From assembly GCA_003054655.1 (NCBI GenBank), contig QAYZ01000012.1, positions 248,001-312,000 of the forward strand: a stretch of DNA of 64,000 bases. Reading direction: 5' to 3'. Below are positions 212 through 26,385 of the stretch, in pieces (position 1 is the first letter of the stretch; every line of letters begins with the position of its first letter). Source of the stretch: Spartobacteria bacterium LR76. GTDB lineage: Bacteria; Verrucomicrobiota; Verrucomicrobiia; Chthoniobacterales; Terrimicrobiaceae. A model generated the notes under the pieces. It ran no database searches. It was not told the origin of the DNA and saw nothing but the letters and a program-made list of their open reading frames with translations. A program made the position numbers and the translations under genes.

Positions 212-238
212 GTCATTCACTCCCCCTGATTGAATGAC
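212..238 (+). promoter_or_regulatory. Inverted repeat overlapping the start codon of the first cassette gene
   Basis: GTCATTCA (212-219) and TGAATGAC (231-238) form a perfect 8-bp inverted repeat with an 11-base loop. The ATG at 234 lies inside the right arm, and no Shine-Dalgarno sequence precedes it. It could be an operator for the divergent GntR protein or an mRNA hairpin hiding the start codon. The repeat is seen; the function is inferred. Confidence 0.4.
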
Positions 239-971
239 CAAACTATCCAGCACACGAGTGGAATGCTCTCAAGCCAAGGGCTCTTCAGCAGCTTTCAGCC
301 TGGTGGAGCTGCTGGTGGTGATGGCGATCATGATCACGATCATGGGCATAGCCGCGCCTGCATTCAGTGGCATCAACCGGGCGGCGAATGTCTCCTCGGC
401 GGCTTATGAAGTGGCGTCGATCATCGAGAACGCACGCTCCTATGCCATGGCGCGCAATACTTATGTATGGGTCGGATTTTTTGAGGAGAACGTCACCGCG
501 ACTACGCCGGGGAGTGCTGGGAAGGGTCGGATCGTGATCGGGGTGGTCGCCTCCAAAGATGGCACCGTGATTTATGATCTGGCCAGCCCCGGGCAGCTTC
601 CTGCGGACCGGATCGCGCCTCTCAACCGGACGGTGAAGATCGAGAACATGCTGTTGAAAACGTTTCCGGAAGGAACAGGCAGCGGGGCGGATTTTGATTC
701 ACGTCCGCCGGCCAACGACGGGGGAACATGGATTGAAAGCAGCGGGGTCTCGCAGACGCCCTTTTCCATGGGGGGATATGTTTTTCAAAAAGCCATCGAG
801 TTCAATCCTCGCGGGGAAGCGCGTATCAACAATGGAGGCAGTGCTTTGCGGCCTGTGGTGGAGATCGGCTTGCTACCGGCACGAGGAGCCGCCGTGGATC
901 CTAATGAAAGCAATCTGGCAGCCGTTCAGGTGAGCGGGGTTGCTGGCAACGTAAAGATCTACCGGAGGTAG
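234..971 (+). CDS. Prepilin-like protein, Verru_Chthon cassette protein D type (GspH-like), cassette 1
   Basis: 245 aa with a type IV prepilin N-terminus: a short polar leader, then AFSLVELLVVMAIMITIMG, with the conserved Glu five residues after the expected cleavage site and one long hydrophobic helix (about residues 20-43). The rest should be a periplasmic beta-rich head. The C-terminus (QVSGVAGNVKIYRR) matches the end of the D protein of cassette 2 (QINPVTGTPLVYRP), which supports the D assignment. By length and gene position it resembles GspH-type minor pseudopilins of type II secretion. It is first in a tight unit: two bases separate it from the next gene. The start at 234 is tentative because of the inverted repeat and missing Shine-Dalgarno; a GTG at 258 is an alternative. 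Confidence 0.8.
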   Translation: MTKLSSTRVECSQAKGSSAAFSLVELLVVMAIMITIMGIAAPAFSGINRAANVSSAAYEVASIIENARSYAMARNTYVWVGFFEENVTATTPGSAGKGRIVIGVVASKDGTVIYDLASPGQLPADRIAPLNRTVKIENMLLKTFPEGTGSGADFDSRPPANDGGTWIESSGVSQTPFSMGGYVFQKAIEFNPRGEARINNGGSALRPVVEIGLLPARGAAVDPNESNLAAVQVSGVAGNVKIYRR

Positions 972-973
972 GG

Positions 974-1438
974 ATGAAGCGAGGGGGCTTCAGCCTGGTG
1001 GAAGTTACGCTTGCTCTCGGGGTGGCCGCCTTCTGTCTGATCGTTGTCTTTGGCCTGATCCCCGTCGGATTGCGAAGCAACCAGGCGGCGGTCGAGCAGA
1101 CGGCGGCGGTTGGCATCCTATCAAGCATCGCCGCCGATCTGAGAGCCACGCCGAGGACGAGTCCTGCCGGGCAGAAGATTGCCTCACAGCGTTACGCCAT
1201 CGACATCCCCGCCAATCCCGTCACCACCCAAAGCGTAGCCACGCTTTTTCTCGATGAGGACGGCAACTGGTCAAAGACGGCAGACGCAAAGTCACGGTAT
1301 CGATTGACCGTCACATTTCCCCCTAATGGGGCGGATAGCCGAAGGGCTACACTCGCACATCTGAAGGTCTCCTGGCCGTCTTCTGCGGCGGAACCCGTGG
1401 GATATGCGGAATCCTTTGTGGCCCTGGATCGCAACTGA
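974..1438 (+). CDS. Prepilin-like protein, Verru_Chthon cassette protein B type (GspI/PilV-like), cassette 1
   Basis: 154 aa with a very short leader (MKRGG) and then FSLVEVTLALGVAAFCLIVV, a class III prepilin cleavage site followed by the N-terminal helix. The conserved stretch GLIPVGLRSNQAA is nearly repeated in the B protein of cassette 2 (GTLPVGLRSAQQS), so both belong to one family. GspI/PilV-type minor pseudopilins have this size and 'FSL(I/V)EV' start. The small C-terminal domain (roughly residues 70-150) is probably exposed in the periplasm. The gene sits two bases after the D gene and 19 bases before the C gene, consistent with co-translation of a four-part complex. Confidence 0.85.
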   Translation: MKRGGFSLVEVTLALGVAAFCLIVVFGLIPVGLRSNQAAVEQTAAVGILSSIAADLRATPRTSPAGQKIASQRYAIDIPANPVTTQSVATLFLDEDGNWSKTADAKSRYRLTVTFPPNGADSRRATLAHLKVSWPSSAAEPVGYAESFVALDRN

Positions 1439-1457
1439 TGTGGGAGAGATTTTCACC

Positions 1458-2411
1458 ATGAGATGGACTCGGGAGGCCTGGCGCGGCTTTAGTCTGGTGG
1501 AACTGCTCGTATCCCTGGCAGTCCTCGCCGTGCTGCTGGTATTCATCAGCCAGATCTTTGGTTCGGCGACGGCAGTGACCGGTTCCCGGAACCAGCGCAT
1601 GGACGCGGACGCCCAGGCGAGGGCGGTGTTTGGCCGGATGGCGGTGGATTTTGCGCAGATGATCCGGCGGCCGGATGTGGACTATTTTCTCAAATCTGAG
1701 GCGAGCGACGCCTCCGGCAGCAATCCCCAGGCGGGCAATGACCGGATGGCCTTCTACAGCCAGGTGCCGGGGTATTCCTCGGCCAGCGCGGCGATGCAAA
1801 GTCCGGTCTCCGTCGTTGCCTGGCGGATCAATGAGAGCGATGCCGGAGGGCCCTTGAATCACCTGGAGCGGCTGGGGTGCGGGCTGGAGTGGAGCGGCGC
1901 ATCCTCCCTCGCTTACACAGGTCCGTCAGGGCCTCTCGTTTCCGCCTCGGGGGATAACAGGATATCCTCCAACTGGCCGGCGGCGGTATCTGCCACCCAG
2001 GCAGATTCCCGCTATGAGAATGCCGGGCCGGAGGTCTTCCGGTTGGAGTATTATTATTTCCTGCGCGGACAGAGTGTGAACGGGATCGCTTACCCTTCCA
2101 TGGCCAGCGCGACGCCATGGGATACACGCATTCCCGGGCGGTCATCGGTCGACGGGCTGCGCGATGTCGCCGCCATCGTCGTGACCATTGCTGTCGTGGA
2201 TCCCAAGAGCCGGCAACTGATCACGGATGAGCAGCTTGCCGCGCTGGCCGACAGGATGAAGGATTTCGATGCTTCCACGATGACCTCTCCTGGCGACCTC
2301 AAGACGCAGTGGCAGTCCGTGATCGAAGACGCCGGGAATGGCATCCCCCCCTCCGCCTCCGCCGCGCTGCACACCTACGAACGCACGTTTTCGCTGTCCC
2401 CCGCCTTTTAA
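1458..2411 (+). CDS. Prepilin-like protein, Verru_Chthon cassette protein C type (GspJ/PilW-like), cassette 1
   Basis: 317 aa from the ATG at 1458, chosen because it gives a normal short leader (MRWTREAWRG) in front of FSLVELLVSLAVLAVLL. An earlier ATG at 1404 would overlap the B gene and lengthen the leader. The head contains RMAFYSQVPGY and NHLERLGCGLEWSG, a pattern I associate with Verru_Chthon cassette protein C. Position and size match GspJ/PilW-type minor pseudopilins. It should be cleaved and N-methylated by a prepilin peptidase encoded elsewhere. Seven bases separate its stop from the start of the A gene. Confidence 0.8.
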   Translation: MRWTREAWRGFSLVELLVSLAVLAVLLVFISQIFGSATAVTGSRNQRMDADAQARAVFGRMAVDFAQMIRRPDVDYFLKSEASDASGSNPQAGNDRMAFYSQVPGYSSASAAMQSPVSVVAWRINESDAGGPLNHLERLGCGLEWSGASSLAYTGPSGPLVSASGDNRISSNWPAAVSATQADSRYENAGPEVFRLEYYYFLRGQSVNGIAYPSMASATPWDTRIPGRSSVDGLRDVAAIVVTIAVVDPKSRQLITDEQLAALADRMKDFDASTMTSPGDLKTQWQSVIEDAGNGIPPSASAALHTYERTFSLSPAF

Positions 2412-2418
2412 ATACCGG

Positions 2419-5400
2419 ATGAAGCCGCGATCCTCACACATCGACCTCGTCGCGAACGGCAGGCCCGAGAAAGGCGTCGCGCTGGTGATCGTGCTTGCGC
2501 TGGTCGTGCTGTTGACGGGCCTGGTGGTCGCGTACTTCTCGCGTTCGATGTGGGATCGGCAGCTTTCCAACAGCAGCCTGCATCAGGCCATGGCCGACGA
2601 GTTGACACGAAGCGCGATGGATATCATCACTGGTGATCTCAAGCAGGAGATCGCCAACGGCTCCACCCGGACGACAGCGGGAGCCACGACGATTTACACG
2701 CCGGTTTCTGCAGCCGGAACGATGCCGGTCAGGAACACGCCGACCAATCCCTCTCCGACTCTGCTGCGTATCAGCACTGCCACGGATATTGGCGCGCCCG
2801 GAGCGGATCATCCGGCCTCTCCGGCCATTTCCACCACGCCGTCGGCAAACGGACGGAGCATTTCGCTCAAGCGGTGGAACAGTCATTACCTGCTGCCCTT
2901 GGGAAATCCTGCAAAACCGCAGGACACGACGCCGGTGAGCAGCGGAGCGGAGGCTTTCACGGCGCCGGGCTGGGTGTATGTGACCAATGCGGGTCCGGTC
3001 AAGCTGGCCACCCCCGACAAGGCCGTTATCGGGCGCTACGCCTACGCGATTTATGACGAGGGGGCGCTGCTGGATATGAATGTCGCCGGGTATCCGTCAC
3101 CGCTTCCCTACGTCTCCGGCCCGACCATGCCGCCAAGCTATGCCTTGAAGGGATCGCTGGCTTTTGCCGATCTGACCCAGTTGAAGGACGCTTCGGGGAA
3201 TTCGTGGATGACGGGAGCCGGGATCAATTCCACTGTCGGATGGCGCGACTACGCCTCCCTGCGCAACGCTTCGGGGCAGCCGGATGGCGTATTCCCTGCT
3301 CTGTCCTTTAGCGGGCCGTCTGTCTACCCGGCGTACGTTGATCTTGCGGCATCTGGCGCGACCGACTCTCCGGATGTGCGGCCCGTGGCGGATCCCAACG
3401 GGCGGACCGATCAGGCATTTCCATCCCGGCAGGCGCTCATCCGCTTCTGCTCGAGCATCGGGACGGAGAATTTCAATCCCAACGCGCTGCAGTATCTGGG
3501 CACGTTTTCCCGTTCACTGAATGCTCCCACGTGGAGTCCGCAGGCCGATGCCAGCAACGGATTCCTGTACAAGACCGACGCGGAGAAGCCGGAGTCGGCC
3601 AATCGCAATATCCCGAATGTGAGGACAAAAAAAGCCTTCACGCGTGCAGATGGCTCCAGAGCGGAGATCGGCGAGGTGCTGGTCAATCAGCGGTTTCCTC
3701 TTAACCGGCTGGCTTTGGTGACGGACTCGGCCACGGCTGCGGAGGGTTCGGATATCGAGAGGTTTTTTGGGCTGACCCGTGAGACGGCCAAGGGCGAGCC
3801 GTGGGTGTATCGAGGCGGAGCTGCGAGCATTGCCACTCTCGACGAGGTTGCCGCCCAAGGGTGGGAGCCCGATTTCTTCGAACTGCTCAAGGCGGCAATC
3901 CTCGCCGGTTCCCTCGGCAAATACAGCGACAACGACAATCATCTCGTCACCAAAACCTTGGATCGAAACAAGGATGTCCAGATATTCCAGATCGGAGCCA
4001 ACCTGATCGATCAGTACGATGCCGACAATCACCCGACCGTAATCGGGTTCGGATCGTTTGATCCCATCTATGGCACGGAAAGCCTGCCATATCTCAATCA
4101 CCTCTATGTCACCATCTTCCGGCCGAATCGCGGCGACCCCCAGTATCCCACTTTGGAGGGCTGGCTTCAGTTCGGACTTTGGAATCCGAATGGAAACGCT
4201 GCCGACCAGACGACCGACAGAAAGTACCGGATCATTGGCACCGACGGACGGGCTTACCTTGAAGCCAGCAGCGGGACGAATTTCCTCTCCGCGCAGCAAA
4301 ACCTCGCCGGACGGTATCTGGAGTTCACCGCCCGCGGTTCCACGTTTGCGGAGCCGCAGTTGTTGATCCCAAGCTCCACCATGACTGGCGGCGTGACTTT
4401 TGCGGGGGTGCCGATCGATGCGACCAATGACTCCTCTGGCTACTTTGGCAGCCCGGCGCAACCTTCCTATGCATCCACCACGACGGCGGTTACGACCACC
4501 TCGCCTTGTTATCTGGTGGGTTTCTACCTTGGTTCCGCGGTCAATCCGATCACGGGGGAACCCGCCAGGGACCGTACGATCACGGGCAATCCCTCCGATC
4601 CGGCGTCGCTTTCGTATTACCACGCCCGCAACGCGCTGGGCAGCGGGGGGCGGTATCCGACATTCGCCCTCCAGTATCAGGATGATGACGGCACCTGGCG
4701 TACTTATGAGTCGGTCCAGGCCCGGAGCTTCTATCTCGATCATTGGTACCAGTACGGCTTCAAAAGCTGCACCACCTGGCTGACTGGAAAGTACAACCTG
4801 AATTCTGGCTGGGGTTCCGACAGTGGCCGTGGCACCTCGGTCGGCAGTGGACTGGCATTTGGTCTCACCGCGCTGAGCGCCATGGACCCGAGGTCAAAGC
4901 GTGGCGGCATGGTCAGCACCATCGGATTGAATGGTCGTCCGATTGTCGCGCAAACGACCATACGGCCCAATAGTTGGGCCAATCGGTTCGATTCCGAGCC
5001 GACATCGAACTCGGGATACCCGAAGAACCCCGCCGGAATCACCATGTGGACCGGATGGAGCACGAACAACACCTTTCAGCCAGCCAAGACGGCGGACAAC
5101 AAGGCGGGGGCGAGCAGCTTCGTCACGGATCTCGATGGAGTCGTGCGGAGGGCGGACGGCGACGAAAGCAACAAGGTGTCCCCTCTCTGGCAGGTGGCAT
5201 CCGGGACGACCGCACAGGCCGTGCGGGCGATGAGGCCGACGATGCTGAACCGGCCATTTCGCTCGGTTGGAGAGATGGGATTTGCCATGCGGGGAGACCC
5301 CTGGAAATCGCTTAACCTTTTCAGCTCGGATAGCGCAGACGCAGCGCTGATGGATTTTTTCACGGTCGTGGACGAGCCTGTGGTCGCCGGGCGTGTCAAT

Positions 5401-5880
5401 CTCAACACTGCATCCCGAGCCGTGCTGTCCGCCATCCTCACTGGTGCGCAGAAAGCCGAAGACGGAACGACCCTTCCTCCCGTCCTGTCCTCCGCCGAAG
5501 CTGGCAAGATCGCCGATTTGATCATTCAGAAACGCGCTTCAGCGCCGTTCCGCAATGTGGCTGAGCTTGCCACCCGGGTGGGCGACGACCTCCCTGCTGC
5601 GTTTGACACCGGCCCCACCAACACGAGCGACGGGTATTTCAAGACGCGCCGGGAATCCGCAATGCGCGCCCTCGTGGATGCGGTCGACACCCGGACTTGG
5701 AATCTCCTGATCGATGTCGTCGCCCAGACGGGCATGTTTGCTGCCAATGCCCCGCAAACGGAGGCTGCGCTCAACAGTTCCTTCATCGTGCAGGGAGAGC
5801 GCCGCTATTGGCTGCACCTCGCGATCGATCGCTACACGGGCGAGGTCATCGCCAGGGAGCTGGAGGCTGTTTATGAGTAG
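2419..5880 (+). CDS. Giant GspK/PilX-like protein, Verru_Chthon cassette protein A type, cassette 1
   Basis: 1153 aa from ATG 2419; the frame is open upstream but ATG 2419 follows the C stop directly and gives a sensible N-terminus. It begins with a polar segment, then GVALVIVLALVVLLTGLVVA, a GspK/PilX-like membrane helix without the usual Glu. Near residues 990-1060 is GRVNLNTASRAVLSAIL, followed by an IADLIIQKR...PFRNVAELA stretch, the helix-hairpin-helix arrangement typical of GspK. GspK caps the type II pseudopilus tip and is usually about 300-330 aa, so roughly 800 aa are inserted here. The shared pattern of DFFTVVDEP then AG-(R/K)-(V/I)-N links it to the A protein of cassette 2. The last codons overlap the next gene by 8 bases. 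Confidence 0.75.
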   Translation: MKPRSSHIDLVANGRPEKGVALVIVLALVVLLTGLVVAYFSRSMWDRQLSNSSLHQAMADELTRSAMDIITGDLKQEIANGSTRTTAGATTIYTPVSAAGTMPVRNTPTNPSPTLLRISTATDIGAPGADHPASPAISTTPSANGRSISLKRWNSHYLLPLGNPAKPQDTTPVSSGAEAFTAPGWVYVTNAGPVKLATPDKAVIGRYAYAIYDEGALLDMNVAGYPSPLPYVSGPTMPPSYALKGSLAFADLTQLKDASGNSWMTGAGINSTVGWRDYASLRNASGQPDGVFPALSFSGPSVYPAYVDLAASGATDSPDVRPVADPNGRTDQAFPSRQALIRFCSSIGTENFNPNALQYLGTFSRSLNAPTWSPQADASNGFLYKTDAEKPESANRNIPNVRTKKAFTRADGSRAEIGEVLVNQRFPLNRLALVTDSATAAEGSDIERFFGLTRETAKGEPWVYRGGAASIATLDEVAAQGWEPDFFELLKAAILAGSLGKYSDNDNHLVTKTLDRNKDVQIFQIGANLIDQYDADNHPTVIGFGSFDPIYGTESLPYLNHLYVTIFRPNRGDPQYPTLEGWLQFGLWNPNGNAADQTTDRKYRIIGTDGRAYLEASSGTNFLSAQQNLAGRYLEFTARGSTFAEPQLLIPSSTMTGGVTFAGVPIDATNDSSGYFGSPAQPSYASTTTAVTTTSPCYLVGFYLGSAVNPITGEPARDRTITGNPSDPASLSYYHARNALGSGGRYPTFALQYQDDDGTWRTYESVQARSFYLDHWYQYGFKSCTTWLTGKYNLNSGWGSDSGRGTSVGSGLAFGLTALSAMDPRSKRGGMVSTIGLNGRPIVAQTTIRPNSWANRFDSEPTSNSGYPKNPAGITMWTGWSTNNTFQPAKTADNKAGASSFVTDLDGVVRRADGDESNKVSPLWQVASGTTAQAVRAMRPTMLNRPFRSVGEMGFAMRGDPWKSLNLFSSDSADAALMDFFTVVDEPVVAGRVNLNTASRAVLSAILTGAQKAEDGTTLPPVLSSAEAGKIADLIIQKRASAPFRNVAELATRVGDDLPAAFDTGPTNTSDGYFKTRRESAMRALVDAVDTRTWNLLIDVVAQTGMFAANAPQTEAALNSSFIVQGERRYWLHLAIDRYTGEVIARELEAVYE

Positions 5881-6511
5881 ACTGCGTTGCTGTATTGCCC
5901 TATCCTTTGTTCTCCTGTCGGTCGTGTGGTCGCCGGGCCAGGAACCGGCGGCGCCCAGGCCGGCGGTCGCAGCAGTCCCGCCGGAACAGGGACGGTGGAA
6001 GATCATCGTGACGGATGCCAAAGGCGAAAAGGCGGGAAGGACGGATGACCGCACGCCAAAAGTCGTGGAGATCGAGATCTGGAGGTCGGGCTCCCGCGCC
6101 CGGATGGTTCAAACGATCTCCAATGGAGCCACCGCGGAAAGCTGGATTGCCGACGACTATCTGCTGAGCCGCTTTCCGGCCTTCCCGGACATTTACGTTA
6201 CCCGGCTCAATGATCGCGCAACGCCTCTGGATGACGGCATGTCGGATTTCCGCGATGCCTTCCCGGGTATGACCTGGCTCGACCCGAAGTATCTCGCAGG
6301 CACGGAAACGAAAGACGGAAAACTCTGCGAACATTACGTGAATCCCGAGGCGGATTGCGAAGCCTGGATCGCGGCGGACTCCAAACTCCCGGTCGCCTGG
6401 CGCAAGGGGTCCCGGGTCTTCACCTATCGATTTCTTCCCCCGGAAAACCTCAGCATGCCCGAGCCCTTTCTCGGCGAGTTGAACAAATATCTCAAAGCCG
6501 ACTCCCAGTAG
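5873..6511 (+). CDS. Small secreted protein of unknown function downstream of cassette 1
   Basis: 212 aa from the ATG at 5873, which overlaps the end of the A gene by 8 bases. A signal peptide is visible (MSRLRCCIALSFVLLSVVWS, then an Ala/Pro-rich linker). The mature part has one likely compact domain with two Cys (LCEHY and EADCEAW) and ends KYLKADSQ. I do not recognise the family. The translational overlap suggests it is made with the cassette, perhaps as an outer-membrane or periplasmic helper, but that is inference. Cassette 2 has no equivalent at the same place. It is followed after 24 bases by the GH38 gene. Confidence 0.7.
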   Translation: MSRLRCCIALSFVLLSVVWSPGQEPAAPRPAVAAVPPEQGRWKIIVTDAKGEKAGRTDDRTPKVVEIEIWRSGSRARMVQTISNGATAESWIADDYLLSRFPAFPDIYVTRLNDRATPLDDGMSDFRDAFPGMTWLDPKYLAGTETKDGKLCEHYVNPEADCEAWIAADSKLPVAWRKGSRVFTYRFLPPENLSMPEPFLGELNKYLKADSQ

Positions 6512-6535: not shown

Positions 6536-9500
6536 ATGTTACCGTCCCATCATCTGCCCCAGCTCATCATCAACCGCATCGACGGCGCGATCCGCAGGCT
6601 TCGCGAGGAGATATGGCAGGGGTTCCTGCCGGTCGATGTATCAGCTACTCCTTCCGGCCCCCAGCAATATGATGTCGCGCAGGCGTGGCGGCAGCCATTG
6701 AGCCCGGTCAGACCTTGCTCGTTTTGGGGAAGGTTGTTTGATCAGAGATGGTATCGGCTCGATATTCCGCCCTCGGGCGGGCCGTTCTGGCTGAACTGGC
6801 GTAGCCAGAGCGAGGACACGCTCTATGTGAATGGCGAGCCGTATTTCGGCTTCGATGTCGGGCATCGCCACGTCCGGTTACCTGCGGGGGCAACTGAGGC
6901 ATGGGTCGAGTCGAATTGCATTCAAAGCGCGATCTGGCACCCGGAAGCCTCGCCCATGGATGCGGCGGGAAGCTATTTTGAAGGGGCCTTTCTTGGCTGG
7001 AGGAATGAAGAAGCCTGGCAGGCCTACAATGATCTGAAATGTCTCTTTGATCTCGCCGCCGACCAGCGCGGACGCGAGGACAGCAGGCTGAGTGCCGGGA
7101 TCGTTCCCTTCGGCTTGCAGGTGCCGATGGAGCGCTTTTCGCCCGCGTTTCGTCTCCTGCTGCGCATCCTGAACGAAGCGGTCGATGCCTGGGACAGGAC
7201 GGGAACGCTGGATGCCTTGCGTGAGCGGCTGGCGGAAGGATATCGGGATTTGCGGGTCGACAAGACCTTCATGCGATGCGTGCTCACCGGCCATGCGCAT
7301 ATCGACCTCGTGTGGCTGTGGCCCGAGCGGATCGGTGAGCTCAAGGCCGTGCATACCTTCTCCACTGTGAACCGTCTGATGGAGGACTATCCGGAGTTCC
7401 GCTTCGCCTATAGCCAGATCGCGAGCTATGAAGCCGTGCGCCGCCGCACTCCGGGGCTTTATCAGCGGGTGAAGGATCGCATGGAGTCCGGCCAATGGCA
7501 GGCCACGGGAGCGATGTATGTCGAGTCCGATACGATCCTCGCCTGTGGCGAGGCCCTGGCACGCAGCTTCCTGCTTGGGCAAAAAGGGTTTCAGGAAATG
7601 ACGGGACGACCTGCCCAGCTCACCTGGCTGCCGGACGCCTTTGGCTACTCGGCCTGCCTTCCCCAGATCATGGCCCAGACCGGGGTGAAGTACTTTTACA
7701 CCACCAAAGTGACGTGGAACTCGATCAATCCCTTTCCCTATAGCAGCTTCATCTGGAGGTCGAATGGCTCGGAGGTGATCGGCCACGTTACGCGGGATGC
7801 GGGCTACAATACCTTTGTCCAGGTGCCGGAGATCCGGGCCTGCGTGCTCGGGCATCAGCAGGGGGATATTCACCAGGAGTGCCTGCTGCCGACAGGCTTT
7901 GGCGACGGAGGCGGAGGGCCCACGGCGGAGATCTGCGAAAGGGCTCGGCGTCTCGGGGCATTGCCCGGGATGCCGGAACTCGCCTGGGACCAGCCGGAGG
8001 CTTTCTTCGAACGTCTGGCGCGCCTGCGCGACCAGCTTCCTGTCCACCAGGGAGAGTGTTATCTTGAGTTTCACCGCGGCACATACACAACCCACGGGAA
8101 TTTGAAGGCTGCCTTCCGGGGATTGGAGCGGGCCATGTGTTGTGCTGAGGCCGTTGCCGTGGTTACGGGGCATCGGTGGGATATGGAGGAATCCTGGTGC
8201 CGCCTGGTGTTTGCCCAGTTCCATGATTACATCCCGGGGAGTTCCGTATGGGATGTCTATGCAGAGGGGTTGCCTGACTTGAAAAAGCATGCCGTCGCGC
8301 AAATGGATCACGCTCACGCCGCGCTCAAGCAGGGGAGCGATGAGAGGGTGTGCGTTTTCAATCCCCACGCGGTTGAGGTTCGACGCTGGATCGAGGATCC
8401 GTCGACAGGCCGCGCCGTGTGGATGACCATCCCTCCTCTGGCTGGAGCCGAAATCGGTTCCTGCGGGAATCCCGATGCCGTACACGTCTCTGGTGGCACT
8501 GTCTCCAATGGACTGGTGGAGTTTCGCCTCGCCGACGAGGGATGGATCGACAGTGTGGCGTGGGAGGGGGCGAAGGTTCCGATCTGCGGCCCATTCGGCC
8601 GTCTCGTGATGTATCCGGATCGACCGGCGAATTTTGAAGCCTGGGACATCGATCGAAACACGCTCTCACTTGGCCAGCCTTGCGAAGGGGTTGCCGCCAT
8701 CGCTCCATGGTCGGACGCGCCTCATCGTGCTGGTTTTCGCGTCCGTCGCTCGATCGGCACGAAGAGCACGGCCGAGGTGATCTTTTATCTGGAGGCGGGC
8801 AGCCCGCACCTGCATGTCGAGGTGGAGCTCGACTGGCAGGAGCCGGAGAAGCTGCTCAAGATGGTCTTTCCGACCCGCTATGCCGGGGCGAATGCCCGCT
8901 ATGGAGCCCCCTTCGGGAGCACCTTGCGTTCGCAGATTCCCGATGGGCTGATTTCCGAGGCGATGTGGGAGGTGCCGTTTAGCAGGCATTTCTCGATCTT
9001 CGACGAGGGAGAGCGCGAGGGAATGTTTGTTGCGACGGAGTCAAAGTACGGCGTTTCCGTGCGCAGCGGAGTGGCGGGTGTGAGTCTCGTGCGCAGCCCG
9101 AGGGTGACAGGGATGGATAATGTGCACGCCTCGGTCTGGCCGCAGCATCTTTCGCGCATCGAAGCGCCCGCCGCTTATAGTGACCTGGGAGCGCATCGGA
9201 TCCGCCTGGTTCTTGGCCGCTACGACATCACCCTCCCCCGTGCCTCACAACCGGCCTCCGTGGCTGAGACGGAATTTACCGCGCCTCTGGTTTATCGCGG
9301 TCGCCCCATTCCTTCGGCTCTCGGCGAGGTTTCCGGGGGGGAGACCTTGATTCCCTGCTGGGCGGCGCCGCTGGATGGCGGGCGCTGGGTCTTGCGTCTC
9401 CATGAGGTGGCGGGAAGGCGAGGCGTGATCCGGATCGCTCCGCCAACCGGATGGACTTTGGAGGCTACCGACCTGTCTCTCGGGACGATCACGGAGCTCG

Positions 9501-9568
9501 GCGAGGGCAATGCGCTTGAGTACGAGCCCTATCAGGTCGCAAGCATCCTCTTCACGCCAGCCGCGTGA
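6536..9568 (+). CDS. GH38 alpha-mannosidase
   Basis: 1010 aa, the usual length for bacterial GH38 enzymes, which remove alpha-linked mannose with a Zn2+-assisted retaining mechanism. Expected metal and catalytic residues are present: HAHIDLVWLWP (H253, D257), the nucleophile in WLPDAFGYS (D367), and the later histidine in QFHDYIPGSS (H563). The order is an N-terminal beta-rich domain (about 1-240), the catalytic barrel (250-520), a three-helix region (530-600) and C-terminal beta-sandwiches. No signal peptide is seen, so it is probably cytoplasmic and acts on imported mannosides. It follows cassette 1 by 25 bases on the same strand, which links the pseudopilin cassette to mannan use. Linkage preference cannot be read from sequence. 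Confidence 0.93.
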   Translation: MLPSHHLPQLIINRIDGAIRRLREEIWQGFLPVDVSATPSGPQQYDVAQAWRQPLSPVRPCSFWGRLFDQRWYRLDIPPSGGPFWLNWRSQSEDTLYVNGEPYFGFDVGHRHVRLPAGATEAWVESNCIQSAIWHPEASPMDAAGSYFEGAFLGWRNEEAWQAYNDLKCLFDLAADQRGREDSRLSAGIVPFGLQVPMERFSPAFRLLLRILNEAVDAWDRTGTLDALRERLAEGYRDLRVDKTFMRCVLTGHAHIDLVWLWPERIGELKAVHTFSTVNRLMEDYPEFRFAYSQIASYEAVRRRTPGLYQRVKDRMESGQWQATGAMYVESDTILACGEALARSFLLGQKGFQEMTGRPAQLTWLPDAFGYSACLPQIMAQTGVKYFYTTKVTWNSINPFPYSSFIWRSNGSEVIGHVTRDAGYNTFVQVPEIRACVLGHQQGDIHQECLLPTGFGDGGGGPTAEICERARRLGALPGMPELAWDQPEAFFERLARLRDQLPVHQGECYLEFHRGTYTTHGNLKAAFRGLERAMCCAEAVAVVTGHRWDMEESWCRLVFAQFHDYIPGSSVWDVYAEGLPDLKKHAVAQMDHAHAALKQGSDERVCVFNPHAVEVRRWIEDPSTGRAVWMTIPPLAGAEIGSCGNPDAVHVSGGTVSNGLVEFRLADEGWIDSVAWEGAKVPICGPFGRLVMYPDRPANFEAWDIDRNTLSLGQPCEGVAAIAPWSDAPHRAGFRVRRSIGTKSTAEVIFYLEAGSPHLHVEVELDWQEPEKLLKMVFPTRYAGANARYGAPFGSTLRSQIPDGLISEAMWEVPFSRHFSIFDEGEREGMFVATESKYGVSVRSGVAGVSLVRSPRVTGMDNVHASVWPQHLSRIEAPAAYSDLGAHRIRLVLGRYDITLPRASQPASVAETEFTAPLVYRGRPIPSALGEVSGGETLIPCWAAPLDGGRWVLRLHEVAGRRGVIRIAPPTGWTLEATDLSLGTITELGEGNALEYEPYQVASILFTPAA

Positions 9569-9588
9569 GTCTCCAGTCGTCCATCACG

Positions 9589-10566
9589 ATGCGTGCGCCA
9601 CTTTGCCTAATCGCATGGCTGCTGCTATGTGTGACTGGTGTATCCTCCGGCACGGAGGACGGAGCGGAACGCATCCTGCGAAATGACCAACTGGAAGTCC
9701 GGGTGATGGTGCCCGACCATCCCGGGCAATACAATCGCGGGACGCGATTCACCCCGATTGCTGCCGTGCTCGGTGTGCGCCGCGATGGCGTGGAGTATCT
9801 TTATCGGCCGGAACCGCACGATCCGATCAACGACCACGCCGGACTGGCTGCGGAGTTTGATCTGTGCATCCCGGATGGTCCTGCCGATGCCCTGCCGTCG
9901 GGATATCAGGAGGCGGCAGTCGGGGATGGTTTCCTGAAAATCGGCGTGGGCGCGCTGCGTAAACCGGCAAAGACTTATCACCTCTTTATGACTCCCGAAC
10001 TGCTGGAGCCCGCTGTGACGACAGTCGATTGGCAGGCGAACCGGGCGGTGTTTCATCAAATCTTCGATGGCAGAACGACTCCCGGTTACTCGTATCGCCT
10101 GGATGCCGTGTTGTCGCTGGAGGGAGCGAGTGTGGTGGTCGATTGGAAGCTCTCCAACACGGGAACGAGACCGATTACCACGCGGCAATATACGCATAAT
10201 TTCTTCCGCATTGCCGATCGACCCGCGGCATCCGGCTACATCCTTTCATTTCCCTATGACATTCAGCCGAAAGGCCTGGAAGGGGGGCAGAAACTCGCTG
10301 GACGATCGATTCATTTTACGGGTGCCATACCCAAGTGGATCAATGCGACGGTAGCGTACCCGGCCAGCTATGCTGGACGAAACATCGTGACTCTCCGTCA
10401 TCCCGAGGCCGGGCGGGAAATCGTCTGCGAGATCTCCGATCCCGGGCTGCGAACCGATATTCACGCACGTGCGGACTATATTTCTCCGGAACAGTTCATC
10501 GAGATCACGCTGCCGCCCGGTGGGTCGCACTCGTGGACTAGAAAATACACATTTCAGGAAGACTAA
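9589..10566 (+). CDS. Secreted galactose-mutarotase-like protein
   Basis: 325 aa from ATG 9589, giving a clean signal peptide (MRAPLCLIAWLLLCVTGVSS). A GTG at 9565 in the same frame overlaps the GH38 stop and would give a longer, less typical leader. The body resembles the galactose mutarotase-like beta-sandwich superfamily (RGTRFTPIAAVLGVRRDG, TTRQYTHNFFRI, then a late ISPEQFIEITLPPGG segment). Members include aldose 1-epimerases and many uncharacterised sugar-binding proteins; I cannot assign catalytic residues with confidence. Position directly after the mannosidase suggests a role in handling the same glycan at the cell surface or periplasm. Confidence 0.7.
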   Translation: MRAPLCLIAWLLLCVTGVSSGTEDGAERILRNDQLEVRVMVPDHPGQYNRGTRFTPIAAVLGVRRDGVEYLYRPEPHDPINDHAGLAAEFDLCIPDGPADALPSGYQEAAVGDGFLKIGVGALRKPAKTYHLFMTPELLEPAVTTVDWQANRAVFHQIFDGRTTPGYSYRLDAVLSLEGASVVVDWKLSNTGTRPITTRQYTHNFFRIADRPAASGYILSFPYDIQPKGLEGGQKLAGRSIHFTGAIPKWINATVAYPASYAGRNIVTLRHPEAGREIVCEISDPGLRTDIHARADYISPEQFIEITLPPGGSHSWTRKYTFQED

Positions 10567-10883
10567 CGGAGCTTTGGGCGTCGCGATTTTTCGAACTTTT
10601 TTGGTAAGGTGAACACCACTTCCCTTCCCCTGATCGAGTCTCGATTGGTTGTACTATTGGTAAGCCAAACGGAGGGATTTTGGTAAACAAGATTTTGAAT
10701 AGCATGCCGATTTGTAATACTTAGGATCAGTACCTCCCCTTGCATCTGAAAAATCCATTTCACCCCAGCGATGTTGTGCCGCCCAGCGTCGGTGCTTTGG
10801 CGGTGAAAAGGAGCGTTGCGAGAGGGCTTCTCGCATCCGCGTTCGGGAGGTTCACCAAACACACCCCAGACCCGGACGATACC
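10567..10883 (+). promoter_or_regulatory. Gene-free leader with repeated TTGGTAA motifs
   Basis: 317 bases without a convincing gene separate the mannosidase unit from the carbohydrate-binding genes. It holds three direct copies of TTGGTAA at 10601, 10657 and 10680. The middle copy is part of a near-palindrome, TTGGTAAGCCAA (10657-10668). A related perfect palindrome, TTGGCATGCCAA, lies at 16002-16013 ahead of the next PEP-CTERM gene. LacI- and GntR-type regulators often use such sites, so I infer an operator region. A reading frame open from 10740 joins the downstream gene but has no signal peptide at its start. Confidence 0.4.
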
Positions 10884-11465
10884 ATGAATACAACTTATCA
10901 CATTGACGCTCCCTCCATTTCTTCGCCGAGGCGAGGCACGCAGTTTCTCATCGTGCTCGGTGCAGCAGTCATACTATCGGCAGGCCTTTTGAGAGCGGAT
11001 GAACTGATCAAAAATGGAGGCTTCGAGGATGGAAGCTCCGGCTGGTGGGGGCCGGGACTCAAGAGTGGCGGGGTGGTTTCGGATCAGGCCGGCGGAGGTG
11101 CCAACTGCCTGAATCTCTCGGAGGGCTTTGTTTGTCAGGACAAGCGCCCGGTCGAGGGCGGGAAGTCCTACAAGATCAGCATGAAGATCCGCAGCGAGAG
11201 CGCTCCCGAGGGATCAGTCTACGTGCAGGTGAGCTTCCGCGGAGAAGGCGTCAAGCCCGGCTGGTACGGGGCTGAAGTCGCCTCGGTCGAAGGCCGCTCG
11301 GAAAAGGCGCTCTTCGTCACGGGCGGCACCCAGGAGTGGAAGGAGTACACCTCTGTCATTGATGCTCCGGCTAATGCAACCGAAATGCTGATCTACCTTC
11401 GGAAACTCGGAGGAACGGCTGGCACGGCCTCATTTGACGATGTGAAGATCGAACCAGCCAACTAG
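10884..11465 (+). CDS. Secreted stand-alone carbohydrate-binding module (CBM4/9-like)
   Basis: 193 aa from ATG 10884. An N-terminal export segment (TQFLIVLGAAVILSAGLLRA) is followed by one beta-sandwich module of about 150 aa beginning ELIKNGGFEDGSSGWWG and ending TASFDDVKIEP. 'NGGFE...W' openings are typical of CBM4/9-like domains that bind soluble or insoluble polysaccharide chains. The module closely matches two copies in the next protein (shared GWWG, CQD, YKISMK, EKALFV and YLRK positions). No catalytic domain is present, so it probably serves as a surface or secreted glycan-binding protein. Eight bases separate it from the DUF4838 gene. Confidence 0.8.
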   Translation: MNTTYHIDAPSISSPRRGTQFLIVLGAAVILSAGLLRADELIKNGGFEDGSSGWWGPGLKSGGVVSDQAGGGANCLNLSEGFVCQDKRPVEGGKSYKISMKIRSESAPEGSVYVQVSFRGEGVKPGWYGAEVASVEGRSEKALFVTGGTQEWKEYTSVIDAPANATEMLIYLRKLGGTAGTASFDDVKIEPAN

Positions 11466-11472
11466 CAAGCCC

Positions 11473-14400
11473 GTGACCGGCATCATTTCCATTCCTAATT
11501 CTGTGAAAAACTCCTCCCGACACGTGCGCGCACTTTCCTGGATGGCCTCTGTGTTCCTTCTTGCAGGGGCAGTCTTTGTTCCGGTCTCCCCAATGCTGGC
11601 GGAGAATATCGTAAAAAATGGCGGTTTCGAAGATGGCCCATCCGGCTGGTGGGGCAAAGGAGTCAAGAGTGGCGGTGTCATCCCCGACAAACCTGCCGCG
11701 GGGACTGGAAGCATGCAGATCGCCGAGGACTTTGTCTGCCAGGATCATATCCCGGTGACTGGCGGGAAGAACTACAAGATCAGTATGAAGATGCGCTGCG
11801 AGGGGGTGCCGGACGGAGCAGTCTATGCCCAACTGAGCTTCCGCGGCGGAGGTGCGAGTCCCGGCTGGTATGGGCCTGCCGTGGCGAATGTGGATGGCCG
11901 CACGGAGAAGGCGCTCTTTGTTGGCGGCGGCACCCAGGACTGGAAGGACTACTCGGTGGTGGTTCGTGCGCCGGATGGAGCGAATCAGATGCTGCTGTAT
12001 CTGCGCAAGATCAATGGCACTCCGGGCACGGCCGCCTTCGATGAAGTCCAGGTCGAGCCGACCAGTGAGGCCGTGACCAAGGCGCAGCCTCCGCCGCTGC
12101 CGCCTGATGGACAGGTCGTGTCCAATGGCGGCTTTGAAAAGGGAGCCTCGGGCTGGTGGGGCAACGGAGCGAAAACCGGCGGAGTGGTGACGGAGATGCC
12201 CGCAGGGGGGCTCCAGTGCCTCAAGGTTGCAAGCAGCTTCTTCTGCCAGGACGGGCGTCCTGTGGAGGAAGGCAAGCGGTACAAGATCACGATGAAGATC
12301 CGTAGCGAGAACGCCCCGGAAGGCTCCGTCTATGTACAGCTCAGCTATCGCGGCGCATCCATCAAGGGCGGATGGTTCGGCCCCAATGTCGTCAATGTCG
12401 ACAAGCGCACCGAGAAGGCGCTCTTTGTCACGGGCGGCACCCATGGCTGGGAGGAGTACTCGTGCGTCGTGCAGGCACCGCCCACTGCGGAGCAAATGCT
12501 CCTCTATCTTCGGAAAAAGGATGGCACGGATGGAGCAGCGTATTTCGACGATGTGAGCATGCTGCCCACGGAGGAACCGGAGACGACGGCAGCCGGGCTG
12601 CGCCGCGAGGAGCTTGCCGCAAAATGGCTGAGTCCTGCGCTGCCGGAAGCAGAGGCTGCCGCGGGACTCGCAGCAGCAGTGGGAACCTCGCCAGTCCCGG
12701 CCCGGCTGAAACTCGCAGAGAATGGCCGGGCGCTCTATCGGGTGCATGTCGGTACGGTCGCCGGCGTGATCGAGCTCAACTCCGCCAACGACCTTGCCGA
12801 CTACCTCGGCAGGATCACCGGAGGCAATTTTCAGCCGCTCTCCCACGATGCACATCCTCTCGATGGTCCGTTGATCGTGGTGGGCCGGGACAATGCTCTC
12901 ACCGCGAAGCTGTGCCCTGATATTGACTATGCCAAGCTCGGCGATGATGGTTTTGTCCTTCGTACCGTCGGACAGCATATCGTCATCGCGGGAAATACTC
13001 CCGGAGGCACGATGTATGGCGTGAACTGGTTCCTCGACCACCTGCTGGGCGTGAAGTGGCTGAGTCCCGACTATACCCACGTGCCCGCTTCTCCGAGCGT
13101 CGAACTCGCGGCGCCAAATGAAACGCAGATTCCGCGATTCAAGTTTCGCCAGATCCTGAGCGTGGAGGGGCAGGACAAACCCTTCGCCGCACGCAATCTC
13201 CTTAACGGAAATTCCCACGGAGCGGCGAGCCTTCTGCCAGCGCCGGAGATTGATCACTGGGATGGCTCGTGGCAGCGCCCGGGTCTCACCGCCAGCTTTT
13301 ATCAGCTCATGCCGCCCAAGCAGTACATGAGCCAGCATCCGGATTGGTTCGCCGGCGGCCAGGTCGCAATGATGAATCCCGAGGTGCGCCAGATCATGGC
13401 CGACGGGATCATCGAGCGATTGCGCGGCGTGCCGAACTACGGCGACTACTGGTTTGGCTTCATGGACAACGACTGGGGATGGGACATGGATCCCGCGAGC
13501 GCGGCGTTTGCCAAAGAACATGGCGGGGCTCCGTCCGCCCCGCGCGTTGACATGACGGTCGACGTGGAGCAGCGGGTTTGCAAGGTATTGCCTGATGCCA
13601 AGCTGGCCTTCAACGCCTACCACTGGAGCTTTACTCCTCCCACCAACATGGCGATCCCTGAGGACATCCTCGTGTATCCGATGACCATTCACGTGGACTA
13701 CAGCACCCCGCTGAACCAGGGACGCAACAAGAAGCTGGGCGAAGACATCGCGGGTTGGAACCGCATCGCCAAGACCATCCTGCTCTGGGATCACGTCACC
13801 AACTTCAACGGATTCATCCAGCCTACCCCGAACATTTATCCCATCGCTGAGAGCATTCGCTGGCTATCCGGTCTGGAGAACGTCTTTGGATACTTCGCCG
13901 AGGGGAGCTGGAACACCAAGAGTGCCGAGTTTGCCTCCCTCCGCGTGTGGCTTATGGGCAGGATGCTATGGGACCCTCAGACCAATATTCAGGGGGCCGT
14001 GGGGGAATACTGCGACGCCTATTTCGGCCCCGCAGGGAAGTACCTGAAGCAATACATCGACCTTATGCATGAGGCATCTGTACGCAGTCGTGCGGCAGTC
14101 TGGGAAAAGACGAATGTCGACAGCGCAATGTTCACCTTGGATTTTATCACCAAGGCGGATGCGTTGTTTGCCCAGGCTGAAGCTGCGGTGGTCAATGATC
14201 CCACCTATCTCAGGCATGTCCGGCAGGCTCGCATGTGCGTCGACTACGTCATCCTCGTGCGCCGCAAGGAATACGCCGGTGCGGCGGCCCGGGAAAAGGC
14301 GGGCTTCGTGCTTGATTACGAAAACCGAAAGGCCCGGTTCAACAAAACCATCGAGGATGAGAAGGTCACTCAATTCCGCCAGGCCAAGACGATCGTGACG

Positions 14401-14934: not shown

Positions 14935-14979
14935 GATTTTTCCCGACTCATCGCCCAAGCAGAAGTCAGGCCGATCAAG

Positions 14980-18164: not shown

Positions 18165-21100
18165 CTATGGGGAGAAGGTGGAATTCTCGATGACCCGCCA
18201 TTGGTAGTACTTTTCGAGATTGGGCGGCGTGGGGTCGGCGGTGTAATCGGGGATATCGGTATTTGCCGGATCGAGGAATCTCTCGAGGGTGACCGAGCCG
18301 CGCAGTTCGCCGACGATCTGCCCTTTGCCCTCGGTCCATTTCCCCTGGTCGTTGGCCGGAGGATTCTTCAGGGACTGGACAGTGTAGTGGACGGTGAAGG
18401 TATTCGATTTGGTCGTGAGGCGGGGATAAATATCGGCGTAGGGGCGTTCGCGCACGTTATCGCCCACCAGGGCAAAATCATCCCCGTACCAGCCGGCGTC
18501 GGCGGCGGCGTCTGTGGACCAGGAGTAGCCTTGAGGGACGAGATAGATGTCACAGATCTCCGAGGGAGAGCGGAAGATGTCCCATTTGGCGAATCTTGCC
18601 TTGAACTGCCGGAGCGACCCGTCGCTGTCGCTCAGGTTGAGCGGGAGGCGACCGAGGGCGACGGTGCTTCCGGGAGGCTTGGGGTTAGTGGTAGGAGCGG
18701 TGCTGCCGTAGGGGAGCTTGTAGTAGTTATGTCCTGTCTGTGAGCCATTCAATTGGGCGGCAGCCTTGGGCACTTGGGCAATGAGCTCGGAGCCGAGCAC
18801 GGCGCGCACCCCGGTGCTGCGATCGATGTAGGTGAATGGCACGATCTGGTAGTTCATGTTGATCTTGCCTGCGGTGGAGAAGGGCTCGCTGATGGCGTAG
18901 GGTTCCACGACGGGCATGGTGAAGAGATCCAGCAGCAGGTGGTCTTTGGGACCCTTCGGATCGCGTGGACGGCTGGCTTGCGGGCGGAAGAGGAGAGTGC
19001 GCCAGGGTACGCCCTCCTGTACACCGGTCGGGAGCGAGCCAAACATGACTGCCGACGGAATGATGCGATTGGCGGTGAAGTAGCTTGCGATGCTCGAACT
19101 GGCGCCGTTGACCTGGTTTTCACCGTTATAGTAGGGCGCTGCTCCCGAGCTTGTGTAGATATTGCCCTCGTCCGGTTTGTTTGAGTACGCGCCGTCCCGT
19201 GAGCCAGGGAGGCCAGTGTCCCAATCCCAGTCGGCGGCGGGGGTTGAGGTGTTTGGCACCTTGGGAGTCCAAGCCGGTTCGTAATCTGCTCCCGGCACCA
19301 GCTTGCCGCCGAGACTGACGCCCGGCACGAGATTGGAGGCCTTGGCCTGCATGAGCGTATGGGCCAGCTTTGCCCCGGAGCTGTAGCCTGGCGTGGTGAC
19401 CATGTCCTTGGTACCGTCGGCCGTGACGGTCTCCTTGGCCATGATCAGGCGCACGTCGCCGTCCTTGGCGGCGAGGCTGCGGACGACGTCCGACCTGTAG
19501 CTGCCCGCCGTCGAGCTGTCGGGAATGCCCGTGGCATCGGTGCGAATGACGCCACCCTTGCCAGCGGCTGTGAGGGACCCAGGACTCTGCGCTGCCCATT
19601 CGATGCGTTTATCAAACCCCCACCAATCCTCCACAGTGTTGGTGCCGGCGGTGGCGGTCTGGATCAGATCAGGCAGTGGCAGGGTGATGGAAGGGAAGGA
19701 GATCTGAAAGGTCTGGACCACGCGGCGTGTGCTGGTGCCCTTGGCCTTGACCATGATCTCGGCGACGAAATTTCCGTTGGTGCTGAGGGTGACCGTGCCG
19801 GTGCCATCGGTGGCTGTCGGAACAGTGAAGGGGTTGCTGACGAAGCGGTAAGGAAGATACGAAGTGGAAGAGTTGCTCCAGCCGTTGCGGCGATTATTGT
19901 TTCCGCTCCAGTCGACGCGGGACATGAAATACTGAAAGCCGTTCAGGCCTCCCATCTGGATGACGTCATTGTAACGCGTGGCGGGGCCTTCGGTCAGGAG
20001 ATCGCCGGAGGGAAACGGGCTTTTGTCTAGTCCGGCGGACGTCGTGAACTTCACATTGTTCAGGTCGCGGATGTTGATGCTGACATCGGGCATCATCGTG
20101 TCAAAGCCGAGCATGGGCGAGTTGAGCTCGATGAGGATCATCGCCTGGAGGCGTTTTTCACCGGGATTCAGCAGGGTTTTCGTGCCACCGTAGGTGTCGG
20201 CCAGAGTGGGGTTTGGATTGGTAGTGATGTTGTTGCTTTTGGTGCGGGGATCACTTTCATTACTCGGATCGCCGTTTCCATCGGCGGTGGTGATCAGGAG
20301 CAGCGCGACTTCCGAGATGGTGTACATGCGGCCGAGGCCCTGGGTTGCGCCAATACGCAGCGGGACGACCTGTCCGCCGCCGGTGGCGGCATTTGTGCTT
20401 GGTGGGGTAAACCGCACGGTCGGGTTGCTCGAGCTGGCGTCCGTGACCGAGTGGTCATAGAGATTCGTGGAGCGGATGTAGTCCACCATTTCCGTGAGGA
20501 TCTGGTCTCGCTCGTTGGTATACTTGTATTTTTGGTCGAAGCTTCCGCCGAAGCCGGGGATGTCCCGCGAGGTGAGGTTTTGCAGGTAGCTGTAAAGCTC
20601 GCGGTTGCGGGTGATCTGCGACCAATCATTGGTCGGGCTGGTGGAGTCGTGCCGCTGGAAGTAGTATTGATTGATGGCGGAGCCCGTTCCGGTTGAAGAG
20701 CAGAAAGCGATCAGCTTGTCAAAGGGAGTGGCGAGCTTCGTGGTGTTCGTGGGCGTGGGATTGCGCCCGTATTCGGAATCAATGGGCCAGACGGCGATGC
20801 GGGGAGTGCCGAAGAGCGTGGTCTCCGGGGCTCGGCTGTGGCTGGTGAGCAGAAACTTGCCGGTCTCGACCTGCTGCTGGGTCACAGAAGGGCCGTCGCC
20901 GGGGTTCTGGTTGCGGTCGGGGCGGAAGAGCATTTCGCCCGGGGAGGTGTAGAGGCGGTCGTTCTTGGCGGTGATCGTGGTCGGGATATTGGACTTTGTG
21001 GTGTCGACGGTGCCTCCCTTCGAGCCGTTCATGTCGTCGTAGCGGGGGAGGAGGCTGAAAAATTTCGAGGACGTGCCGGCACCGGTTTGCGTGTTGGCGT

Positions 21101-22082
21101 AGTCCCCCATGGGCATGCCCAGGGCACTGAAGATCTTCGAGAGATCGGTTGTCGCCGGGTGGCCGGGGTAGCGTTGATACTCGCCCTGCACCGGCTGATT
21201 GCGGGAGAAGAGCCTGACGTCGTCCAGCATGCGGAAGCGCGGGACGTCCCAGGGTGCGGAGAGCGCGGTGGTGCCGTTCCATTTGCCAATGCTGCCGGAG
21301 GCGGTATTGACGTTTACCTTGGTCGTCTCGTCATCGGTCCAGAAGGCGACGCGGCCGACGATGGGGTTTTCCTTGGTGGCGCCTGAGATGGTCACGGTCG
21401 AGCCGGATGGGGAGGAGGGAGAGACCATGGTCCCATCGCGCAAGACGTACATCCAGCGCACGGGCATGGGGGCGGGCTGGAGCTGCGTGGCTCCGGGAGC
21501 GCCAGTGATGGAAAAGCCATCGAGGGTCTTGAGGACGCTCGGATTGGTGGCGGAGCCGGGACTCGAGGGGTCGCGGGGGTCCAGGATCGGAAAGCTGAGC
21601 GACTCGGTGCTGCCAAATCCCGAGATGGTGACGGGTTTGTTCAGATCGACCCAGACGGCTGGCTGGCTGGCCCAACTGGCTGGCGGGATGTCGTCGGCCA
21701 GGATATTGCCGCTGCTGGTTGCCGTCGACATCTCAGTGCTCGAGTAGAGGCGATAGATATTGGTGAGGTTTCCCGCGTTGTCGAAAACCCGCACCGCGCC
21801 CGGCTGGGACGCCCAGGTGGAGTCGCCGGTGCTGGTGCCCGTGGTCGCCTCGTTGATCGTGGCCTGTACCAGATTCACGGCGGATTCCGCCAGGAGCCGC
21901 GTGCTGGCGGCGGCGTCGTAGCTCGCCGAGGCAGAACGCTCCGTGCCCGTGCGCACGAGGAAAATGGTCACGAGGGCACCGAGCAGGACGATGATGGCGA
22001 GGACGGCGATGAGGGCGGAGCCGGCGGTCAACTGCCGACGGGCAAAGCAAAGACGCCGTGGGGAATCAAGCAGCCGTTTCAT
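18165..22082 (-). CDS. Giant GspK/PilX-like protein, Verru_Chthon cassette protein A, cassette 2
   Basis: 1305 aa. The N-terminus has a short basic segment and GSALIAVLAIIVLLGALVTI, a PilX/GspK-type membrane helix. The large head contains NPIVGRVAFWTDDETTKVNVNTA and, near the C-terminus, LLLDLFTMPVVEPY followed by GKINMNYQIVPFTYIDR, features I associate with Verru_Chthon cassette protein A. The GspK-like NLNTA/HhH block seen in cassette 1 is replaced here by the NMNYQ block. The start overlaps the D stop as ATGA, so translation is probably coupled. It ends the operon, 160 bases from the convergent PEP-CTERM gene. Confidence 0.88.
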   Translation of the reverse strand: MKRLLDSPRRLCFARRQLTAGSALIAVLAIIVLLGALVTIFLVRTGTERSASASYDAAASTRLLAESAVNLVQATINEATTGTSTGDSTWASQPGAVRVFDNAGNLTNIYRLYSSTEMSTATSSGNILADDIPPASWASQPAVWVDLNKPVTISGFGSTESLSFPILDPRDPSSPGSATNPSVLKTLDGFSITGAPGATQLQPAPMPVRWMYVLRDGTMVSPSSPSGSTVTISGATKENPIVGRVAFWTDDETTKVNVNTASGSIGKWNGTTALSAPWDVPRFRMLDDVRLFSRNQPVQGEYQRYPGHPATTDLSKIFSALGMPMGDYANTQTGAGTSSKFFSLLPRYDDMNGSKGGTVDTTKSNIPTTITAKNDRLYTSPGEMLFRPDRNQNPGDGPSVTQQQVETGKFLLTSHSRAPETTLFGTPRIAVWPIDSEYGRNPTPTNTTKLATPFDKLIAFCSSTGTGSAINQYYFQRHDSTSPTNDWSQITRNRELYSYLQNLTSRDIPGFGGSFDQKYKYTNERDQILTEMVDYIRSTNLYDHSVTDASSSNPTVRFTPPSTNAATGGGQVVPLRIGATQGLGRMYTISEVALLLITTADGNGDPSNESDPRTKSNNITTNPNPTLADTYGGTKTLLNPGEKRLQAMILIELNSPMLGFDTMMPDVSINIRDLNNVKFTTSAGLDKSPFPSGDLLTEGPATRYNDVIQMGGLNGFQYFMSRVDWSGNNNRRNGWSNSSTSYLPYRFVSNPFTVPTATDGTGTVTLSTNGNFVAEIMVKAKGTSTRRVVQTFQISFPSITLPLPDLIQTATAGTNTVEDWWGFDKRIEWAAQSPGSLTAAGKGGVIRTDATGIPDSSTAGSYRSDVVRSLAAKDGDVRLIMAKETVTADGTKDMVTTPGYSSGAKLAHTLMQAKASNLVPGVSLGGKLVPGADYEPAWTPKVPNTSTPAADWDWDTGLPGSRDGAYSNKPDEGNIYTSSGAAPYYNGENQVNGASSSIASYFTANRIIPSAVMFGSLPTGVQEGVPWRTLLFRPQASRPRDPKGPKDHLLLDLFTMPVVEPYAISEPFSTAGKINMNYQIVPFTYIDRSTGVRAVLGSELIAQVPKAAAQLNGSQTGHNYYKLPYGSTAPTTNPKPPGSTVALGRLPLNLSDSDGSLRQFKARFAKWDIFRSPSEICDIYLVPQGYSWSTDAAADAGWYGDDFALVGDNVRERPYADIYPRLTTKSNTFTVHYTVQSLKNPPANDQGKWTEGKGQIVGELRGSVTLERFLDPANTDIPDYTADPTPPNLEKYYQWRVIENSTFSP

Positions 22083-23727: not shown

Positions 23728-23738
23728 GCGCTTGAGCG

Positions 23739-26349: not shown

Positions 26350-26385
26350 GCTTGCTGGCAAATGGCTCTCCCCTCCCCACGCTGT

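Follow-up and report, generated by a model that had tools for sequence, protein, structure and literature searches.

The open reading frame at 2419-5880 (+) of a 64,000-nucleotide stretch of the Spartobacteria bacterium LR76 genome (the whole analyzed stretch is called the window here) is a genuine, oversized GspK-like gene. Its product, a giant GspK-like minor pseudopilin of 1153 aa (cassette gene A-like; ATG at 2419, stop at 5880), is homologous to GspK, is encoded in a cassette of pseudopilin-like genes, carries a modular head that some relatives have lost and is linked to a fifth gene, E; about 20 such cassettes are present in the genome. Full-length homologues were found in two congeneric genomes (95-96% protein identity, conserved gene order), and the gene is therefore not a chance ORF. 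An alternative in-frame ATG at 2338 would give a protein of 1180 aa and an overlap with the preceding gene (end at 2411). The term "giant" is justified because the canonical GspK of the same genome comprises 304 aa. The earlier note on this DNA had described a 1153-aa giant with a GspK-like N-terminus and a C-terminal NLNTA...PF block. The ORF, the profile matches and the conservation in the congeneric genomes showed that this description is real, and the block was located at approximately residues 994-1044. Hereafter, we call the protein P0001 and its paralogs in the LR76 genome P0001-like.

The N-terminus of P0001 consists of a prepilin leader (residues 1-19; 2419..2475, +), with predicted cleavage after G19 (junction G19/VALVI), and a long pilin helix (residues 20-80; 2476..2658, +). 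Position +5 is Ile instead of Glu, and Glu at +5 was absent in all 71 aligned relatives, as in GspK. The NCBIfam GspK model NF037980 matched residues 17-83 (E 1.3e-6; 28.2 bits against a cut-off of 130) and Pfam T2SSK (PF03934) weakly matched residues 1020-1053 (E 0.034; 15.0 bits against a cut-off of 24.2). Neither curated cut-off was reached, and P0001 is not a GspK in the strict sense of these families. When the profile of the 71 relatives was compared with that of 31 canonical GspKs of the same order, two collinear matches were observed, one in the N-terminal helix (E 4.7e-7) and one in the NRPFRSVGEL...NLNT block (E 1.3e-6; 2.4e-8 as a segment). In P0001 the latter corresponds to NRPFRSVGEM...DFFTV...GRVNLNTA...PF (residues 944-1044; 5248..5550, +), the probable counterpart of the GspK alpha-domain and helix-hairpin-helix (HhH). 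A third, weak piece at 205-221 (E 0.006 as a segment) was also in order; here GRYAYAIYDEGALLDMN (residues 205-225; 3031..3093, +) is the positional counterpart of GEWHVRILGEASRININ of canonical GspK. Neither the segment 440-560 (middle alpha-domain) nor the C-terminal strands significantly matched the GspK profile.

The AlphaFold2 model of P0001 (pLDDT 79.9, pTM 0.85) begins with the long N-terminal helix; strands follow, then an alpha-rich region between pilin strands, a beta-rich head at approximately 558-870, helices and C-terminal antiparallel pilin-sheet strands (residues 1093-1151; 5695..5871, +; strands 1093-1107, 1122-1137 and 1143-1150). Searches of solved structures by single sequence or by profile returned nothing meaningful. 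The top PDB match of the fold in Foldseek was XcpX, the GspK of Pseudomonas aeruginosa, and this match was weak (E 0.028, prob 0.41, low TM-score). The proposal of a GspK-like tip protein was thus supported by both ends, which match GspK profiles in collinear order, and the comparison of folds, which might have returned no GspK or PilX structure for the ends, placed XcpX first.

Directly upstream of 2419-5880 are three genes for GspH-, GspI- and GspJ-like minor pseudopilins, forming an H-I-J-K-like cassette. The GspH-type protein (cassette gene D-like, 245 aa; 234..971, +) matched TIGR02596 with E 5e-11 (43 bits, cut-off 70) and GspH with E 0.0026, whereas the GspI/PilV-type protein (cassette gene B, 154 aa; 974..1438, +) matched TIGR02598 with 51.9 bits against a cut-off of 51.4. 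The GspJ-type protein (cassette gene C-like, 335 aa; 1404..2411, +) matched TIGR02599 below the cut-off (E 1.2e-8) and gspJ with E 4.5e-6, and its GFxxxE motif scored above the cut-off. We asked whether P0001 could be unrelated to GspK, with a pilin-like N-terminus and a helix-hairpin-helix that are convergent or generic, as its failure to reach any curated GspK cut-off might suggest. This is disfavoured and very improbable, given that two profile matches, independent and collinear, both have E < 1e-6, that Glu5 is absent as in GspK, that XcpX is the top PDB fold match, and that the partner genes are GspH/I/J-like. Homology of P0001 to GspK is well supported.

The length of the stretch between GTESLPY (552-558) and LNRP (943-946) was bimodal among the 71 relatives: 60 have 307-606 residues there, while the other 11 have 2-49, mostly a Pro-rich linker. 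One natural headless relative, L182, has 690 aa. In a tree built from the core only, the headless forms nested within the giants and two changes were needed; the head was thus lost at least twice. These natural headless relatives and the two losses identify a pilin body with a separable extra module. The ten paralogs of the LR76 genome were 40% identical to one another in the core and 22% identical in the head; residues 351-557, with 37% identity, are approximately as conserved as the core. The earlier suggestion of an inserted head therefore held for one removable, fast-evolving module at approximately residues 558-942 (about 385 residues; 4090..5244, +; boundaries GTESLPY to LNRP), but not for the proposed extent of 800 residues (60-990), because 351-557 is core-like. 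The supposed 800-residue insertion thus resolves into a single module of 385 residues and conserved expansions of the core.

The head is predicted to be a beta-sandwich, both in the AlphaFold2 model of P0001 and in that of a compact homologous head of 304 aa (pLDDT 77, pTM 0.80). It matched no Pfam family and no PDB sequence, and none of the Foldseek matches against the PDB and viral models reached E 0.001. The search for carbohydrate-binding domains that had been suggested for this region accordingly recognized neither a carbohydrate-binding nor another known fold (Pfam, PDB and Foldseek). Scattered, weak, beta-rich Foldseek matches of low probability to pore-forming toxins, ApaG-like proteins and arrestins were rejected as relatives of the head, and no function was read from them. 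CBM29-type matches of the whole model were likewise set aside, being weak (E about 1) and absent among the best matches of the isolated head. The proposed binding of a substrate or surface by the head would be consistent with its fast divergence, its removability and its link to the gene of a putative secreted partner.

This partner gene is the fifth cassette gene, E (212 aa; 5873..6511, +), whose product has an apparent Sec signal peptide and no Pfam family match. The first 8 nt of the gene, beginning with its ATG, overlap the end of A with its stop. Gene E adjoined 74 of 95 giants, mostly overlapping the stop of A, but was next to none of the 11 headless forms; Fisher's test gave P 5e-7, an optimistic value because the test treats relatives as independent. 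Beside the remaining 21 of 95 giants no gene E was found. Only nine matches to gene E were detected in the LR76 genome, each directly downstream of a P0001-like gene (9/10), and the TIGR02600 loci scanned in this genome lacked gene E. The sole P0001-like gene of the ten without E downstream is L079:8547-12149; its relatives L101 and L113 also lack it. Because headless relatives lack E too, the head and E appear to work as a unit. A structural or regulatory role of this unit would also fit that pattern: head and E might cap the pseudopilus, set its length or stabilize the enlarged core, without binding a substrate, and GspK is regarded as controlling how long the pseudopilus becomes in characterized systems (PMC6211770). 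However, the head diverges far more rapidly than the core, unlike a structural cap, and the presence of approximately 20 diversified copies in a genome favours specificity; we consider such a role unlikely.

The LR76 genome encodes 10 P0001-like and 11 TIGR02600 giants (about 20 cassettes). The match of P0001 itself to TIGR02600 was confined to residues 19-86 (N-terminal 68 positions; 28.5 bits), and the membership cut-off of 332.3 bits was not reached. The two types were nevertheless homologous in the N-terminus (E 3.5e-15) and in the PW.TL..LLDLF..AGKINMN block (E 8e-6). The TIGR02600 model has a length of 1296 positions, and giant size is a family trait already implicit in it. A second giant in the window (1305 aa; 18165..22082, -) is a bona fide TIGR02600 Verru_Chthon cassette protein A (888.8 bits against 332.3), and its cassette spans 18165-24218 (-; A 18165-22082, D 22079-22696, C 22675-23727, B 23739-24218). 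We also observed a third kind of giant prepilin-like protein (L262:8006-11878, 1291 aa), in which GspK matched only the N-terminus (E 1.6e-5); it has an HhH-like stretch near the C-terminus, and neither of the two profiles (TIGR02600, P0001) matched it. Scanning 84,980 species yielded 79 loci, all in Verrucomicrobiota. The P0001-like family was patchy, being present in 12 of 26 genomes of the same family and in 4 of 115 genomes across the phylum (strict threshold, six candidates scored per genome).

One complete T2SS operon is present in the LR76 genome (core operon in L224) and comprises G, H, I, J, D, E and F besides the 304-aa K; the gene at 2419-5880 is not part of this operon, which has the separate, small GspK. 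Because one complete operon with a small GspK stands against approximately 20 cassettes, the most likely role of the cassettes is to provide alternative tip complexes for shared T2SS machinery, on which these complexes would be assembled. On the other hand, the genome encodes five secretins and several PilT/GspE-type ATPases, which counts against assigning the cassettes to one machine. Two tandem GspE-type ATPase genes (L090:13566-15260; G000:C11:583577-586439) lie a few kb from a TIGR02600 cassette.

A carbohydrate locus lies directly downstream of the P0001 cassette (6536-15924, +), encoding GH38, CBM4_9, DUF4838 with CBM4_9, and GH130. In LW23, a D-B-C-A-E cassette keeps DUF4838/CBM4_9 and 9565-type neighbours at 53% identity of A. 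Among 79 neighbours of cassettes, LacI regulators and many families of glycoside hydrolases, lyases and esterases recurred, a count that is not scaled to the genome-wide background of hydrolases. A pulG-like pseudopilin of another member of the Verrucomicrobiota, with 67 homologues in that genome, is over-expressed on alginate (PMC13274419). Further, two PATR-repeat proteins with PEP-CTERM tails (16115-18001 and 26362-28026, +) adjoin the TIGR02600 cassette of the window, and the LR76 genome contains approximately 100 PEP-CTERM matches. A PEP-CTERM protein was located within 5 kb of 6 of 10 P0001-like cassettes (P about 0.013). The idea that PEP-CTERM proteins are dedicated cargo was left as weak because no PEP-CTERM enrichment was detected near TIGR02600 cassettes.

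GspI-J-K form the pseudopilus tip, and GspK itself is regarded as a modular pilin (PMC6211770; PMC8179133). We propose, at roughly even chances, that each cassette encodes an alternative tip complex for the pseudopilus and belongs with a glycan-degradation locus. P0001 would be a GspK-type minor pseudopilin enlarged by the removable head of about 385 residues and by smaller, conserved additions to the core, and would form the tip complex together with the products of the upstream GspH-, GspI- and GspJ-like genes; the head would therefore lie at the outermost end of the filament. Gene E, whose translation is coupled to that of A and whose occurrence goes with that of the head, may encode a periplasmic or secreted partner that contacts the head. 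Each tip might be adapted to the proteins or surfaces that matter for the adjoining carbohydrate-degradation locus. More tentatively, a single T2SS machine could be served by approximately 20 interchangeable, locus-specific tips, in which the head and E set the exported protein or the contacted polysaccharide.

The same neighbourhoods could point to a role outside the cell, in which the head, displayed on a short type IV pilus-like filament, would act as an adhesin or bind glycans and tether the cell to polysaccharide instead of serving as a secretion tip. Modular tip pilins with grafted vWA, lectin or beta-sandwich modules are widespread (PMC8179133), the cassettes adjoin glycan-degradation genes, and the genome encodes multiple components (secretins, ATPases) of type IV filament machines. 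However, the core of P0001 is closer to GspK than to type IV pilus pilins and no carbohydrate-binding fold was recognized in the head, and we regard this role as possible but doubtful.

The interpretation as alternative secretion tips matters because T2SS substrate recognition is an open question in the field. One machine operon, about 20 diversified tips and relatives that lack both head and E make tip-based specificity directly testable. Further, an unexplained cassette of Verrucomicrobiota (TIGR02596/98/99/600) is now linked to tip proteins of the GspH-I-J-K type, and a fifth component is added. Our literature search found no paper naming a cassette of the 2419-5880 type. As far as our searches reached, four points are new: the relationship to GspK, the mapping of the head's limits together with its natural loss, gene E, and the arrangement of one operon with many tips.

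Among known systems, P0001 shares with Verru_Chthon cassette protein A (TIGR02600) the logic of a four-gene cassette, the homologous N-terminal 270 residues, the C-terminal block and the size class, whereas similarity between the two is undetectable in the middle or head. With GspK (XcpX and PulK of T2SS; PF03934, NF037980) it shares the prepilin N-terminus without Glu5, the long helix, the NLN/HhH block and the gene position after H-, I- and J-like genes; an alpha-domain inserted in the pilin sheet may also be common to both. In contrast to GspK, P0001 is 3.5 times longer, with the head at approximately 558-942 and an enlarged core; it scores below the curated cut-offs and is of a type encoded in about 20 diverged cassettes outside the T2SS operon. 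The modular minor pilins (PilB/PilC of S. sanguinis, CofB/TcpB and ComZ; PMC8179133) likewise have a module added to a pilin body and are expected at the tip. They differ in that the carrier here is a GspK-type pseudopilin, whose head has no recognized fold and which is present in approximately 20 copies in one genome. In ComZ (PMC8179133) the extra domain is carried as an insertion, as is the head of P0001. The tip pilin CofB works with a secreted partner, CofJ (PMC8179133), an arrangement comparable to that of A with its predicted secreted partner E.
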